Below, in pieces: positions 4,372 through 21,731 of a stretch of 21,731 nucleotides of DNA. Numbering within the stretch: position 1 is the first letter of the stretch; each line of letters begins with the position of its first letter. This DNA is from a virus, in the IMG/VR virus record IMGVR_UViG_3300037040_000085, positions 1 to 21,731 of that record; one strand, written 5' to 3'. Below the pieces are notes generated by a model. The model did no database searches. It was given only the letters and a program-made list of their open reading frames with translations, and had not been told where the DNA came from. Made by a program: the position numbers and the translations under genes.

Positions 4372-5013
4372 TCACGTCATCCATCGACAGAGAAAAGCCC
4401 AGCCGGTCGTTCCGCCGAACATCGCGATCGAATCCGTGGGGCACGACGTGCCGTTGAGAATGAGCGGCGCGCTGGCCGCCGACAGCAGCATGCCCGACGT
4501 CGCCGACGGCACGGCGCAGCCATAGGGGTCGAGATCGCTATTCATGATGAAGACGTAGGGTGCGATCACGTAGCCGGCGCCAGGATCATCGATGACGATC
4601 GACGAAATGGACAGATTCGGCGTCGAGCCGGTCATCACGCAGTGGGCGCGCGCGACTCTCCCGGCGACGATCGACGAGTTGGGCCCGTCGCCGCCCGGCT
4701 GATTGAGGCCGAGAAAAGCCGTGTTGCCCGAGTAGCCGCCGCCGGCGAAGCGCACGACCGGCGGCTTGGAGAAGTTGAAGCCGGCGTTCGTCACCGTGAT
4801 CGAACTGATAGCGCCGTTGGTCAGTGCCGCCGTGGCGCGCGCCGAGCCGAACTCAAACCACAGCGGCCCCGCCGACACATTCTGCAGCATCAGAAAGGAG
4901 CGGGACGGCGTCTCCGGCAAGATTAGCTGCGGCGTGCCGCCGGTCGTAACTGAGCCGTCCGCGGTGAAGAGAGGATGGCGCTTGGCCTGATTGCCTGAGC
5001 CCACAAGTTGCAT
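4372..5013 (-). CDS. Virion-cluster protein with GxGY-type beta repeats
   Basis: This 213-residue protein is the first gene of the fibre block. It starts at an ATG preceded by AAGGA at a 9-base spacing, and 119 non-coding bases with a promoter-like motif lie upstream. Residues 1-65 form a beta-rich domain (SFLMLQNVSAGPLWFEFGSA) like small phage head or tail decoration proteins. From residue 71 come two diverged repeat units (SSITVTNAGFNFSKPPVVRF, then SISSIVIDDPGAGYVIAPYV), the type also found in the nozzle and in the head protein after the capsid gene. The C-terminus ends TTGWAFLCRWMT. A structural or decoration role is likely; its place in the virion is unknown. Confidence 0.7.
   Translation of the reverse strand: MQLVGSGNQAKRHPLFTADGSVTTGGTPQLILPETPSRSFLMLQNVSAGPLWFEFGSARATAALTNGAISSITVTNAGFNFSKPPVVRFAGGGYSGNTAFLGLNQPGGDGPNSSIVAGRVARAHCVMTGSTPNLSISSIVIDDPGAGYVIAPYVFIMNSDLDPYGCAVPSATSGMLLSAASAPLILNGTSCPTDSIAMFGGTTGWAFLCRWMT
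4543..4803 (-). repeat. Two diverged GxGY beta-repeat units in a fibre-block protein
   Basis: Codons about 71-157 of the host gene encode two units with the pattern V/I-T/D-x2-G-x-G/N-Y/F-x3-P-x-V-x-F. The units are more degenerate than the array in the tail nozzle gene but keep the Gly-Tyr/Phe and Pro-Pro/Ala-Pro positions. Confidence 0.55.
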
Positions 5014-5054
5014 CGGATTTTGTCCTTTTCGCCTTTAGAGGGCTTGACTGCTTT

Positions 5055-11574: not shown

Positions 11575-12045
11575 TCAGTCTCTCAGCCAGAGATAGTACT
11601 CATGCTTGATCAGCACCGCTTTGAGCCGTCTGAACCATACTCCAAGACGAGCCCCGCGGCCAAGCATTCGGTGGTGCATCAGCGCGTAGTCGGCGCCGGC
11701 CGCCTTGAGGCCGGGAAGCGAAAAAGTCAGCATCCGATAGCCGAGGCCGGCGAACCGAGGATCGATGTAGATCGCACCCTGGTTCGCCACGATCAGCCCC
11801 TTCGATTCGATATCGGGCATCAGGCTCCATGAGAAATAGCCGACCAGGCGACCGCCGACCCGCGCCCCGACCACGCGAAGCACCCCGGCCCTTTCCGCGT
11901 CAATCATCGCCTGCTCGTCGATCTTGCACGGCCTTTTCTCGGCGAGAACGCCCTCGACCTCGTTGAAATGTGCTCGCACCAGCACTTCGCCTTCAGGCCA
12001 CGCCGACGCCCACGTCTCCCATGCAATAACCACGGGATCATCCAT
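11575..12045 (-). CDS. GNAT-family N-acetyltransferase
   Basis: This 156-residue protein starts at ATG 12045, overlapping the sulfotransferase stop by eight bases; an in-frame TTG at 12072 would add nine residues, but its GGGAGG abuts the codon with no spacing. GNAT hallmarks are visible: a beta strand pair around GARVGGRLVGYFSWSLMPDI, then GAIYIDPRFAGLGYRMLTF, where RFAGLG fits the R/Q-x-x-G-x-G/A acetyl-CoA loop, then an amphipathic helix and ALMHHRMLGRGARLGVWFRR near the end. The substrate cannot be told. Small acetyltransferases occur in this position in other short-tailed phages; virion-protein or host-target modification is possible. Confidence 0.75.
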   Translation of the reverse strand: MDDPVVIAWETWASAWPEGEVLVRAHFNEVEGVLAEKRPCKIDEQAMIDAERAGVLRVVGARVGGRLVGYFSWSLMPDIESKGLIVANQGAIYIDPRFAGLGYRMLTFSLPGLKAAGADYALMHHRMLGRGARLGVWFRRLKAVLIKHEYYLWLRD

Positions 12046-12610
12046 GACCGACAGCCGAACAGTGCGCTGCAACCTCCCGCTTCATCGCATCAATCGAGAC
12101 TTGATTCGCTGCAACCTCCCGCAACTCAGCTACGAGATCGATCTGGACATTGACGTGCGCCCATCGCGCGTCCCACTCCGGCTTCCAGCCATAGATAAGG
12201 CAATGCTCGAACATGCGCCGACGGTTCTTCTGCTCGTACAGATCACGAAACGACATCGACAGCACGCCTGGCTCGCGCTCGATCTCGTCGAGAATAGCGT
12301 CGCGCTCCTCCAGATCCCCGGCGCGCGGCACGATCCCAAACTGCGACAGGCTCAACTTCACATCCTCAATCGGCCGCCGCACGACGGCGATCGCCGCTGC
12401 GGGAAACCGCTCGCGCAGCAGACGCCAGCCTGCCATCGCACCGGTCTCGACCGTGCCGATCATACCGCTATCGAAGTTGTGAAAGAAGTCGTCTATCGAA
12501 GCGCTCCGCGCCGCGATGTCGTGGCCGACACACTCGCCACTGTACGACAGATACTTCGAAAGCCACGCCGTTCGGCTGCGAGGAAGAGCGAAAACGACGA
12601 ACGGCCTCAC
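12038..12610 (-). CDS. Sulfotransferase-like protein (PAPS-binding fold)
   Basis: The start is set at GTG 12610, because GGAG lies eight bases before it and this leaves two bases after the upstream stop; a longer frame reaching 12670 would overlap the upstream gene by 58 bases. The product (190 aa) begins MRPFVVFALPRSRTAWLSKY. The PRSRTAW segment (residues 10-16) is the 5'-phosphosulfate-binding loop of sulfotransferases. AIAVVRRPIEDVKLSLSQFG contains the matching 3'-phosphate element, with Arg78 and Ser87. It would move sulfate from PAPS to an unknown acceptor. Set between the tail nozzle block and the ejection genes beside an acetyltransferase, it may modify a virion protein or host glycan; that is inference. 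Confidence 0.78.
   Translation of the reverse strand: MRPFVVFALPRSRTAWLSKYLSYSGECVGHDIAARSASIDDFFHNFDSGMIGTVETGAMAGWRLLRERFPAAAIAVVRRPIEDVKLSLSQFGIVPRAGDLEERDAILDEIEREPGVLSMSFRDLYEQKNRRRMFEHCLIYGWKPEWDARWAHVNVQIDLVAELREVAANQVSIDAMKREVAAHCSAVGHG
12066..12122 (-). repeat. 15-bp direct repeat, 42-bp period, in sulfotransferase 3' end
   Basis: The + strand sequence gctgcaacctcccgc occurs at 12066-12080 and again at 12108-12122, exactly 42 bases (14 codons) apart. In the protein this gives REVAA twice near the C-terminus. It is a small in-frame duplication; no wider array is present. Confidence 0.7.
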
Positions 12611-12612
12611 AC

Positions 12613-13023
12613 TCAAATCTCCAATTTCAGTTCGGCTTGCTGATGCTCGAGATAATGGAGACGCACCCACGCCTCGAACTGTGGCTTGTCGCCGAAATTG
12701 ACGTCCTGCAAATCGCTGCTTTGCAAGCCGAGAACACCGTTCATGTCGCCGTGAAGCTGCGAGTTGTTCTGCAAGAAATCGCCGATCGCGTTAGAGTCGA
12801 TCGGGTCGACCTGATAGTCGCTCAGATCGGCGCCATATTTTGTCTTGATCGCCGCACGGATACGGTCGTGGCTGTTGCGATGGTCCCACGAAAACCGATT
12901 CCAGCCGTCAGGCGTTTGCGGGAGATTCTCGAGCGCTGCCAGCATATCATTCGCCAGTTCGATTACTGCGCCCAGCGGGGCGAGTCGGTCCTGGCTCAAC
13001 CTGCGGAGATGTCCACGGCTCAT
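12613..13023 (-). CDS. Phage protein of unknown function, 136 aa
   Basis: The protein begins MSRGHLRRLSQDRLAPLGAV and contains WNRFSWDHRNSHDRIRAAI and LHGDMNGVLGLQSSDLQDVN; it ends LHYLEHQQAELKLEI. It looks globular and helical, but I recognise no family. The ATG is preceded by GGTGG at about eight bases, a fair ribosome binding site. The first 77 bases overlap the end of the small upstream gene in another frame, and the stop lies two bases before the sulfotransferase GTG. Position after the tail nozzle gene suggests a tail or assembly accessory role, from context only. Confidence 0.68.
   Translation of the reverse strand: MSRGHLRRLSQDRLAPLGAVIELANDMLAALENLPQTPDGWNRFSWDHRNSHDRIRAAIKTKYGADLSDYQVDPIDSNAIGDFLQNNSQLHGDMNGVLGLQSSDLQDVNFGDKPQFEAWVRLHYLEHQQAELKLEI
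12619..12622 (-). promoter_or_regulatory. Ribosome binding site that sets the sulfotransferase start
   Basis: GGAG on the - strand, followed by ATTTGAGT and then GTG, gives an eight-base spacing. It overlaps the last codons of the upstream gene and supports the short GTG start over the longer frame. Confidence 0.7.
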
Positions 13024-16015: not shown

Positions 16016-16816
16016 CTAAAGTGCTGAACTATAGTATGACTTGACCTTGCCGCCGTCCACGGCGACACGCGCGACGCCTATGCCGCTGGCGAACTGATCC
16101 TCCATCGCCTGCGCCTGAGCGTAACGGCCGCGCGACATGAACGAAAACTTGGCGGCGCCGAACATCAACGCGTCCTGAAACCCGCTAGGGATGACGTCGA
16201 AGTCGTCGTCAGTGTTCAGGTTCTTCGGCGTGCAAATCGCGTCGAGCTCCATCTCGGTCGCCTGAGACGGCGCAGGGTACACCCAGATCTCGCCCTGAGG
16301 CCCGTCATTGTAGACCGACCACAGCACCGGCCATGACGTGTTCAGCACCGAATAGGCGCGCGCGTAGGCCTGAAGGTCGTCCCAAGGCATCCAGTCGAGT
16401 TGCGGTCGCGTCGTGCCACCCCAGTTGACCGCCAGCGCGACAGCGTCGATCACCTCGTCGCAGCCGGCATACTGAGCCTGAAGAGCAGGATTGAAGAAGC
16501 CGACGAATGGATAGCGCTCGACGCCGGGAATCGTCATCATCGCATTCTGCACCGCGCCATATGACCCCGACAGGGCCTGCGGAAAAGCGCCGGGCAGCGC
16601 GCCGGGCTGCATCGCGCCGGGGATCGCGTAACCCGGCTGTGCGCTCGCGCCGAACGCCGATTGACCCGTCACCAGCCGGCGAATGCACGCCGTGCGCTTG
16701 GCACAATCACGCCTCGCTTGATTGCACCACCTAACTAGCTGACTTCTCGACGTGAATGAAAAATTAGGGTCATTCAACAGTTGAGATGCGTCATTGATGA
16801 TCTGGGATAGCGGCAT
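16016..16816 (-). CDS. Head-tail adaptor / tail tubular protein A-like
   Basis: The protein (266 aa) has an N-terminal helical region, LVRWCNQARRDCAKRTACIR, typical of phage adaptor proteins (P22 gp4 / T7 gp11 type). A central part follows with QLDWMPWDDLQAYARAYSVL and GEIWVYPAPSQATEMELDA, then IPSGFQDALMFGAAKFSFMS and an RYAQAQAMEDQF helix, the usual C-terminal half of this family. A Gly/Pro/Ala-rich insert near residues 55-90 is unusual. It would sit under the portal and receive the nozzle. A strong terminator lies just upstream of its ATG, so it may need its own promoter or read-through. Only a weak GGTG stands before the start. Confidence 0.78.
   Translation of the reverse strand: MPLSQIINDASQLLNDPNFSFTSRSQLVRWCNQARRDCAKRTACIRRLVTGQSAFGASAQPGYAIPGAMQPGALPGAFPQALSGSYGAVQNAMMTIPGVERYPFVGFFNPALQAQYAGCDEVIDAVALAVNWGGTTRPQLDWMPWDDLQAYARAYSVLNTSWPVLWSVYNDGPQGEIWVYPAPSQATEMELDAICTPKNLNTDDDFDVIPSGFQDALMFGAAKFSFMSRGRYAQAQAMEDQFASGIGVARVAVDGGKVKSYYSSAL
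16025..16045 (-). promoter_or_regulatory. Candidate promoter motif in adaptor 3' end
   Basis: The - strand reads AAGTCATACTATAGTTCAGC within the last codons of the adaptor gene. It shares the ATACYATAG core with the motifs before the portal gene and before the fibre block, and it points toward the small helical protein and nozzle genes. It may be a coincidence, since it is also coding (SYYSSA). Confidence 0.25.
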
Positions 16817-18320: not shown

Positions 18321-19391
18321 TTAAATCACAGCAGGTTGCGTTCCAGGAACGGCCTGCCACGCCGCGCCAGTGATGCCCGTGACCTGCGCGCCCGAGGACG
18401 GCTTGGCGCAGACGAGATCGGCGCACGAGATGAGAACGCCGACATCGGCGATCTGGCCGACGTTGATCAACGGCTCGAACCCCGAGAAGGTCATCGGCGC
18501 GTATTCGGACATGTACATGCCGGTGTAGCGGCTGTTGATGAAGAACGCCGAGCCGAGCGGGCAGAACGGATCGGGGAAGATCGGCGTGTCGAGCACCTTG
18601 ATGCCGCGGAAGCCCGCGTTGACCACGTCGTCCTTCTCGTAGATCGAGCGCGGACGAGTCTGGTACATCTCGAGGCTCATGAAGTCGGTCATCAGCTCGG
18701 CCCAATTGGCCGGGTTCATGACGCCGAAGTCGGGAGCTTCGCCGCCGGCGCCGGACTGGATGCGCGTCAGAATCTGCGCCGCGCCGACGCGCGTCGTGAC
18801 CGCGGCGCCGGTGTTGTTGATCAACTGGCCGGACCAGAACGAGCCGGGGGTACGTGCGATGCCGCCATAGGACGGGACGTTGGTGCCGTCATCATAGGCC
18901 TGCGACAGGCTATCCCACATCTGCGCATTGGCGTAGTTGTTCGAATAGAGCGCCTGCGCGTAGGCCTGCTTGATGACGACCGCGGCGTCCGACATGACGG
19001 CGCGCAGCTTGGGAATGACAACTTCGGAACTCTGGAGAATCGACTCCATGCCGAAGAAGCCAATCGGCACCATGCCGAGCTTGAGACTGAACTGCGCGTT
19101 CTGGATTGCCGCCTGATCGGTCGGCATCGGGAAGTTGCCGTCGAAGCCACCCCACGAGAACTGGACGAAGGAGTTGCCCTGCACCGGAACGGTGATCTGG
19201 GAAACGCCGCCGCGCGCCGCCTTGCTGTTCGACATGAGCAACGACAAAAGTGCGTGAGATTGGTATACTTGAACATAGCAACTCGGTAAAAAGGCTCTCC
19301 GCGTGAGGGCAGCCATCTGCGCCCCCAAACTACCTCCGGGAGTAATGCCAGAGCCCGTGAGAGTGCTTACCGGAGAATTGGGATAGGCCAT
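18321..19391 (-). CDS. Major capsid protein
   Basis: The protein (356 aa) starts MAYPNSPVSTLTGSGITPGG and is preceded by GAGGT with a short spacing to ATG, as expected for a highly expressed gene. It has the layout of HK97-fold capsid proteins: an N-terminal arm, an extended loop region with ITVPVQGNSFVQFSWGGFDG, a spine-helix region near LRAVMSDAAVVIKQAYAQAL, and a C-terminal axial domain with NAGFRGIKVLDTPIFPDP, GSAFFINSRYTGMYM and a Phe/Gly turn. Position between scaffold and decoration genes supports the call. It forms the icosahedral shell. No protease domain or frameshifted extension is visible. Confidence 0.82.
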   Translation of the reverse strand: MAYPNSPVSTLTGSGITPGGSLGAQMAALTRRAFLPSCYVQVYQSHALLSLLMSNSKAARGGVSQITVPVQGNSFVQFSWGGFDGNFPMPTDQAAIQNAQFSLKLGMVPIGFFGMESILQSSEVVIPKLRAVMSDAAVVIKQAYAQALYSNNYANAQMWDSLSQAYDDGTNVPSYGGIARTPGSFWSGQLINNTGAAVTTRVGAAQILTRIQSGAGGEAPDFGVMNPANWAELMTDFMSLEMYQTRPRSIYEKDDVVNAGFRGIKVLDTPIFPDPFCPLGSAFFINSRYTGMYMSEYAPMTFSGFEPLINVGQIADVGVLISCADLVCAKPSSGAQVTGITGAAWQAVPGTQPAVI

Positions 19392-20782: not shown

Positions 20783-20810
20783 TGGGCGAGGCGCGCGAAC
20801 GCCTCGCCCA
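20783..20810 (-). promoter_or_regulatory. Strong hairpin between mini-ORF and first head gene
   Basis: An 11-pair perfect stem (tGGGCGAGGCG with CGCCTCGCCCa) closes a six-base loop. On the - strand no T-run follows directly; TTTTT comes about 13 bases later, next to the following gene's ribosome binding site. It could be an attenuator, an RNase processing site or an mRNA-protecting structure. Confidence 0.6.
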
Positions 20811-20831
20811 TTGTTCACGGACGACCCGGAA

Positions 20832-20870
20832 TTACTTCCGGCGGCCCTTACGACCCTTGTGACGCGCCAT
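20832..20870 (-). CDS. 12-residue basic mini-ORF with perfect ribosome binding site
   Basis: The - strand reads ATG to TAA for MARHKGRKGRRK. AAGGAG lies six bases before the ATG, as good as any ribosome binding site in the window. Eight of twelve residues are Lys, Arg or His. It is the first translatable unit of the leftward operon, directly followed by a strong hairpin and then the Pro/Met-rich head gene. It may be a leader peptide or a very small nucleic-acid-binding protein. The short length makes codon statistics useless, so the case rests on the ribosome binding site, position and composition. Confidence 0.5.
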   Translation of the reverse strand: MARHKGRKGRRK

Positions 20871-20925
20871 GGGAGTCTCCTTGTTGACGAGAGGGAAGAG
20901 ACTAGCCTCACCCCTACGAGCCGAG

Positions 20926-20955
20926 AGACTACGCTGGACCAGAAGCGCGTGTCAA
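20926..20955 (-). promoter_or_regulatory. Candidate host-type promoter for the leftward operon
   Basis: TTGACA, a perfect -35 hexamer, lies at 20950-20955 on the - strand. After 17-18 bases comes a weak -10 (GTAGTC or TAGTCT at 20926-20932). The mini-ORF starts about 56 bases further on. It lies in the divergent region 20871-21006, which contains no gene. Confidence 0.4.
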
Positions 20956-20980: not shown

Positions 20981-21003
20981 TATCAATACCATAGGATGGT
21001 ATC
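20981..21003 (+). promoter_or_regulatory. Palindromic promoter/operator motif before the portal gene
   Basis: ATACCAT (20986-20992) and ATGGTAT (20996-21002) form a perfect 7+7 palindrome around AGG, just before the portal ATG. Read as TATCAATACCATAGGATGG it matches the motif before the fibre block. AGGA within it (20993-20996) could also be the portal ribosome binding site (spacing about 10), so regulator or polymerase binding and translation initiation may overlap. Confidence 0.45.
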
Positions 21004-21006
21004 AAA

Positions 21007-21731
21007 ATGAGGATACCCCGTGACGCCAAGCAGCTGACCCAGTTCGTCCGCGAGACCGCGTCGCACTGCATGTCGTCCCGTCAGGCGCGAATGAACCGTG
21101 GCGCCTTCTATCAGGGCTACATCGACACCGGCTCGTCAGACGCAACGACGCCGGCGATGTACAACAAGCTGTGGGTGTCGCTCGACGACCTCGAATCCCT
21201 TCTGTTTTCCCCCGTATCGCTGCGCTTCCACATCGGCGACCCCGACTATCCCTCGGTGATCAACGAAGCCAAAGGCCGTGCCGCAGCCGCGCACATCCGA
21301 AACCAATACCGGCGCTGCGACGGCGATTCGATGTTCAGCCAGGCGGTCAACATCGGTCTGGTGCGCGGCAAAGGAATCATCAAACAGAGCTTCGCCAGCG
21401 GACGGTTGTCGACATGGCTGGTGCAGCCTGAAGATTTCGGCGTGCTGCGCGAGAACTACGACCGCCTCGACGAGAACATGGGCGCCTTCAATCATTCGAT
21501 GCTGGTCACGTTCGACCAATTCGTCGGCCTGGTGAAGAACCACCCCGACAAGAACGAGATGCTGAAAAAGGTCAAAGCCTATACACGCGACAGCGCTGGT
21601 CTGACCGACACGCGCGGCGGCACGGCGATGAACATCACCGTCGGCGGGCTCTACCCGATGCAGGCGGCGGGACAAGGCGGCCCCCAGATAACCGGGCGCG
21701 TCGACTGGATGGGCCGACCGCAACCGCAGCT
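21007..21731 (+). CDS. Portal (head-tail connector) protein, C-terminus beyond window
   Basis: The frame opens at ATG 21007 (TAG is in frame shortly upstream) and stays open to the right edge: 241 residues are visible. It begins MRIPRDAKQLTQFVRETASH, then SRQARMNRGAFYQGYIDTG, MYNKLWVSLDDLESLLFSPV, RFHIGDPDYP, VNIGLVRGKGIIKQSF and LSTWLVQPEDFGVLRENYDR. The order of an N-terminal helix, a short loop with tyrosines, then a wing of alternating strands and helices is that of portal proteins of short-tailed phages. It would form the dodecameric ring at one capsid vertex for packaging and tail attachment. It is the only + strand gene seen and diverges from the rest of the head genes. Confidence 0.75.
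   Translation, partial: MRIPRDAKQLTQFVRETASHCMSSRQARMNRGAFYQGYIDTGSSDATTPAMYNKLWVSLDDLESLLFSPVSLRFHIGDPDYPSVINEAKGRAAAAHIRNQYRRCDGDSMFSQAVNIGLVRGKGIIKQSFASGRLSTWLVQPEDFGVLRENYDRLDENMGAFNHSMLVTFDQFVGLVKNHPDKNEMLKKVKAYTRDSAGLTDTRGGTAMNITVGGLYPMQAAGQGGPQITGRVDWMGRPQPQ

Follow-up and report, generated by a model that had tools for sequence, protein, structure and literature searches.

We identified a very short gene, encoding a peptide rich in lysine and arginine, that by sequence comparison is conserved in hundreds of uncultured tailed phages, next to their head genes. The pattern of codon differences among relatives indicates that it is a genuine gene under peptide-level purifying selection, and its coding character is well supported. 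We propose, with moderate confidence, that the product is a nucleic-acid-binding micro-protein, most likely one whose target is the phage DNA, either as it is packaged or inside the head.

The window (the whole stretch of DNA analyzed, 21,731 nucleotides) is a 21.7-kb uncultured-virus record. A sequence-only reading had pointed to a 12-codon Lys/Arg-rich ORF with an AAGGAG ribosome binding site and to an 11-pair hairpin, 21 bases past its stop and before the first head gene; both are present (Table 1). The ORF, which encodes MARHKGRKGRRK, is the sole one of 9-25 amino acids with at least 50% Lys/Arg and a Shine-Dalgarno (SD) sequence on either strand of the window. Its placement at the head of the late operon rests on an upstream TTGACA box with a weak -10 element, TAGTCT; a stricter promoter scan did not list the site. 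In the relatives that we call clade A (below), promoter-like sites were present within 150 nt upstream of the micro-ORF in 46 of 58 distinct loci, and none were found downstream, an arrangement that makes a transcript shared by the micro-ORF and the head genes plausible in this clade. At 20982-21003, the interval that separates the start of the portal gene from the leftward promoter-like site contains an inverted repeat, GATACCATcctATGGTATTGATA. Many clade-A loci have a version of it centred on ATCCTAT, and the repeat may therefore be an operator serving both directions.

Table 1. Features of the window around the micro-ORF and in the adjoining head genes
Feature	Position	Strand	Basis or remark
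SU10-type adaptor	16016-16816	leftward genes	
Major capsid protein	18321-19391	-	phrog_9953 major head protein, E 5e-19
First long gene of the leftward head operon, Pro-rich, 133 aa	20361-20762	-	Pfam and PHROG searches negative
11-pair hairpin, TGGGCGAGGCG-TTCGCG-CGCCTCGCCCA	20783-20810	-	Conserved, with compensatory changes; missing in some lineages
Small stem-loop over the stop codon, CCGGAA-GUAA-UUCCGG	20826-20841	-	Clade-A folding; suggestive
Basic micro-ORF MARHKGRKGRRK, 12 codons + stop	20832-20870	-	ATG at 20870, TAA ending at 20832 (direct reading); conserved position, composition, synonymous pattern
Shine-Dalgarno AAGGAG	20877-20882	-	6-nt spacer to the ATG of MARHKGRKGRRK; direct reading
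5' leader stem-loop, AGGGG-TGAGGCTAGTCTCT-TCCCT	20892-20915	-	Just upstream of the SD; by inspection
Promoter-like site, TTGACA (20955-20950), 18 nt, TAGTCT (20931-20926)	20926-20955	-	Weak -10
Portal gene, divergent, N-terminal part	21007-21731	+	tblastn to annotated portals of MW202825 and MW202753

The portal assignment rests on tblastn matches to the annotated portals of MW202825 and MW202753 (E values of 7e-13 and 4e-11, respectively). Searches of Pfam and PHROG with the proline-rich gene that opens the leftward operon gave no match. Within the run of structural genes, a 210-aa ORF (12038-12670) matches phrog_10855 (hydrolase) and phrog_38824. The only match to a cellular genome, a single contig of a Geobacteraceae metagenome bin, was too little to name a host.

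A search of viral contigs (IMG/VR) with the window's capsid protein yielded the 67 loci of clade A. In nearly all of them, a Lys/Arg-rich ORF of 9-23 codons preceded by an SD lies some 1.3-1.5 kb upstream of the gene for the capsid protein; the SD was one of the criteria by which the ORFs of relatives were sought. Among the exceptions, the ORF is displaced in two loci (L013, L033) and is lost to a search cut-off in two more (L040, L042), and in L048 and L069 the contig is cut off or another ORF occupies the place of the micro-ORF. By eye, L048 has a frame resembling a GIY-YIG endonuclease at the expected place upstream of the head genes (L048:1-450). In several members of the clade (L032, L036-L039), the region upstream of the capsid gene contains as many as three basic micro-ORFs in tandem, one of them with a cysteine (MASCRSKKRSTRK).

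Two deposited Manatee Spring phages, MW202753 and MW202825, have capsid proteins about 37% identical to that of the window and carry two tandem basic ORFs, at which the existing annotation has antisense hypothetical genes only. These opposite-strand genes, at 4740-5038 of MW202753 and 25683-25943 of MW202825, are probably wrong annotations. The IMG/VR relatives of the two phages make up clade B, which is larger than clade A, with at least 598 matching contigs. Among the clade-B loci with enough upstream sequence, 57 of 59 contain one or usually two basic ORFs (MYKKMKRGRKTRR, MARKARKGRKGRK), a count that includes L130 and L159, in which the ORF pair lies just beyond the searched distance. The commonest peptides are MYKK(M)KRGRKTRR and MARKARKGRKGRK. 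Loss of the ORF in close relatives with the flanking genes kept was seen only in L192 and L194, two of the 61 clade-B loci examined. Neither of the two basic ORFs is present there some 1.3-1.5 kb upstream of the capsid gene, and the flanking genes are intact; an unrelated ORF detected in each locus does not count among the 57. The peptide is thus not strictly required in these two phages, or it is encoded elsewhere. In both loci a promoter-like site comes immediately after the small gene that follows the portal. L099 and L109 form a third group, in which the peptide is MVRNRRHKGRKGRK and only a few bases separate the ORF from the start of the next gene.

A DNA scan for the coding sequence of the first clade-B peptide, independent of the capsid gene, gave at least 115 matches. 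Among the 115 matches listed, 114 are ORFs of 12-14 amino acids with an ATG and an SD, a second basic ORF follows in 111, and 111 have the TGGCT core that marks the leader RNA of clade B. The density of SD-led basic ORFs (per kb) at this interval is 1.32 in clade A, versus 0.0014 elsewhere, and 3.46 in clade B, versus 0.0039; that is, such ORFs are about 900-fold rarer in the rest of the same DNA than beside the head genes, and the few matches outside the interval are displaced copies of the same peptides. The micro-ORF is more than a chance occurrence, and these comparisons indicate that it is conserved across two to three phage clades. No convincing counterpart was found in Mx8, Mx9, BUCT555, ppBjS10J-1, Mwe-JY13, the TM7 phage or MW202803, a set of structurally related phages (including Bradyrhizobium and Microcystis phages) with more distant capsid proteins.

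The peptides are built of basic-basic-small triplets and end in Arg-Lys or Arg-Arg, with the C-terminal Arg-Lys-stop almost invariant. Arginine codons exchange between CGN and AGR with the arginine kept. Synonymous changes account for 0.73 of single-base codon differences in clade A, and for 0.87 and 0.81 in the first and second clade-B peptides, shares that were counted over pairs of related, distinct sequences and hence carry no simple P value; the expected share for these peptides is 0.24-0.26. The excess is large in all three sets of peptides, and with 73-87% of differences synonymous where about 25% are expected, selection acts on the peptide itself. An overlapping 72-aa ORF in another frame of the same strand is interrupted in relatives. 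Read-through or a frameshift fusing the first and second peptides was rejected, because the spacer between them varies in length and the frame is not kept. Pfam gave no match to the 21-23-aa variants even at E = 10 (the 12-aa form being too short to scan), nor did PHROGs and PDB searches with the longest variants.

The RNA upstream of the ORFs bears on the reading that the peptide is an autoregulator, an arginine-rich peptide that binds the structured leader or the hairpin and represses or antiterminates. In clade B, a stem AGGG/CCCT lies between the two peptides, and the bases of its loop pair with a stretch immediately upstream of the second SD. Across 40 sequences (L134:3517-3577, L088:4493-4553 and 38 further loci), 90.8% of the cells of this pseudoknot are paired, versus 80.5% in shuffled controls, with 53 two-sided changes versus 16.8, and every slid control was far lower. 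The covarying, pseudoknot-like element is probably a new phage cis-regulatory RNA, and its location before the second peptide suggests translational control. By inspection, most clade-A relatives have a pre-SD stem-loop with a similar GG...CUC-type loop and changing stems, and a crude single-locus test found the stem significant in only 22 of 54. The pseudoknot, the recurring clade-A loops, and a size and charge typical of arginine-rich RNA-binding peptides all favor autoregulation. Against it, a covariance model of the clade-B leader (without the pseudoknot) matched no clade-A leader, and homology between the leaders of the two clades is not supported. We also rejected the idea that the loop of the clade-A leader pairs with the SD, since the complementarity showed no convincing locus specificity: a loop pairs with its own SD at -8.5 kcal/mol, barely better than with the SDs of other loci (-7.9 kcal/mol), and better in 20 of 33. 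Rfam, at the gathering score, gave no matches in the window and 13 related loci.

Known phage regulators offer partial parallels. The N protein of lambda, which acts on boxB, and Nun of HK022 are short, Arg/Lys-rich peptides with structured RNA in the same transcript, a combination that the micro-ORF shares. Lambda N, however, has further domains, whereas the micro-ORF persists where the downstream hairpin is missing and has no conserved boxB-like loop; a search for a hairpin with a fixed loop of that kind found none, the loops after the ORF ranging from 4 to 30 nt with no common sequence. T4 gp32, a nucleic-acid-binding protein, represses its own mRNA, whose leader contains a pseudoknot (PMC535899, PMC3014915), and the clade-B pseudoknot invites the same comparison. 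Gp32 is, however, a large, folded single-stranded DNA-binding protein, and the clade-B pseudoknot is structurally different, with its regulatory role a prediction. Overall, we consider it unlikely that autoregulation is what the peptide is for, but with host targeting it is one of the two chief rivals to a role on phage DNA.

Alternatively, the peptide might be directed at the host (its ribosome, RNA polymerase or a nuclease) and be encoded beside the head genes by chance. Many short phage proteins target host machinery (PMC11323111), and the composition is compatible with ribosome or polymerase binding. In two clades and the third, sister group, however, the gene keeps a fixed site next to those for the portal, the scaffold region and the capsid, and this favors a head-linked role over host targeting, which we regard as quite improbable.

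The hairpin downstream of the ORF in the window has 11 perfect pairs, or 12 with an additional U.G, and was recovered as a BLAST self-match and as part of the minimum-energy fold (z = -2.2, 146 nt). In clade A, a hairpin stronger than in shuffled sequence follows the ORF in 51 of 54 distinct loci, mostly 5-25 bases past the stop. Compensatory changes, for which the earlier reading had proposed a comparison of relatives, were found in nine close aligned sequences: pairing is maintained in all 90 cells, and changes on both sides of a pair number eight, versus 2.8 in shuffled controls. TTTT occurs at the 3' arm of 16 of 48 distinct hairpins, and no terminator-like site was found in the window. 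Four loci (L058, L061, L099, L109) keep the ORF and lack the hairpin. The persistence of the ORF in these loci, the variable loops and the few TTTT tracts suggest that the hairpin is a generic element of mRNA ends or stability and not the target of the peptide. A role for the hairpin alone as an RNA processing element, conserved with compensatory changes and not in its loop sequence, is possible. A smaller stem-loop over the stop codon, CCGnAA-GUAA-UUnCGG, gave a significant fold in 16 of 45 distinct clade-A loci (about 2 expected); its stem sequences differ, and the bases change together between lineages, which is suggestive only of a real element.

The sequence-only reading had also raised attenuation-like control, in which the speed of the ribosome over Arg/Lys codons, or a stalled nascent chain, would set read-through of the hairpin into the head genes. 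The micro-ORF resembles leaders of the hisL/trpL type in being a short, SD-led ORF followed by a hairpin and standing before structural genes. It would be the first ORF in the transcript, a hairpin follows closely in most of clade A, and the nearly invariant Arg-Lys-stop would suit such a device. In contrast to those leaders, the hairpin is dispensable and usually has no U-tract, different peptides occur in tandem, which would not be expected of a leader, and clade B has a promoter-like box between the basic ORFs and the head genes. This TTGAC box lies within 170 nt after the last basic ORF in 53 of 54 distinct loci, and as close as one base past the stop in L162, L177 and L180; the same distance upstream of the first basic ORF contains such a box in 21 of 54. 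With the ORF persisting without a hairpin and the clade-B box intervening before the head genes, the attenuation proposal is not supported, and we think it improbable. Least credible of all is a conserved RNA element with an incidental short frame and no functional peptide, since structured RNA does flank the ORF on both sides but the codon-position and synonymous pattern and the AGA/CGN exchanges are unexpected under selection on RNA.

Of the options in the sequence-only reading, the last, that this is one of the smallest DNA/RNA-binding proteins of phages, has the best support; selection on the peptide, the tandem, paralogue-like copies and the occurrence in two to three clades speak for it, with binding itself a prediction. 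The occurrence of different basic peptides in tandem, the strong SDs and the location beside the genes for portal and capsid are what one would expect of a polycation that acts in trans and is produced in quantity. We envisage a unit beside the head genes with its own punctuation (leader structure, SD, ORF and hairpin), the product of which would be a free, trans-acting, polycationic micro-protein of 9-23 residues. Synthesized in large amounts, as its sequence signals suggest, it would bind phosphate backbones and could neutralize or condense the phage DNA, or enter the capsid with the DNA, much as microviruses use their J protein. RNA or the ribosome would be an equally suitable target for a polycation. 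The hairpin after the ORF would stabilize or end a short mRNA, giving peptide in excess over the head proteins, and in clade B the pseudoknot may control translation of the second peptide. The fullest form of the proposal is more tentative and less likely than not: that these are a widespread, hitherto unannotated family of virion micro-proteins of 9-23 residues, often a two-peptide set, that condense or guide the double-stranded DNA in the heads of tailed phages and control their own synthesis through the leader RNA.

By analogy, the micro-protein would work most like microvirus J and recalls the internal proteins of T4, although on the features tested it is a member of neither group. Microvirus J proteins are roughly 23-38 amino acids long, and like the micro-protein they are very small, strongly basic and encoded beside capsid genes. 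In phiX174, some 120 copies of J per RF coat the replicating DNA, and within the virion the protein appears to guide the genome (PMC13386984). J belongs to single-stranded DNA microviruses, whereas the phages described here are tailed, double-stranded DNA phages with a portal and a tailed-phage major capsid protein. The micro-protein is also shorter (9-23 amino acids) and often of two tandem kinds, and the likeness between the two is one of analogy. The internal proteins of T4 (IPI-III) are packaged with double-stranded DNA in the head of a tailed phage, with lysine-phosphate contacts (PMC3012670). They are folded, bear a capsid-targeting sequence and are proteolysed, whereas the micro-ORFs encode a basic stretch only. 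The basic-basic-small triplets and RGR core also resemble AT-hooks and tails of the histone H1/Hc2 type; the proline of the AT-hook is absent, however, and the 21-23-aa variants have no Pfam match.

Genes of 9-14 codons fall below the length limits of standard gene callers. A literature comparison that did not take in the principal survey of small genes in phages (Fremin et al. 2022) returned no specific report of this micro-protein family, and its novelty is provisional. A conserved family of genes this short beside the head genes, in a clade of at least 598 IMG/VR contigs, would point to a missed class of phage genes. If the fullest proposal is true, few structural proteins that bind the genome of any virus would be as small as these peptides, which would be a counterpart of microvirus J in double-stranded DNA phages. 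The family would open to test the idea that the handling of packaged DNA in tailed phages involves tiny polycations dedicated to the task.
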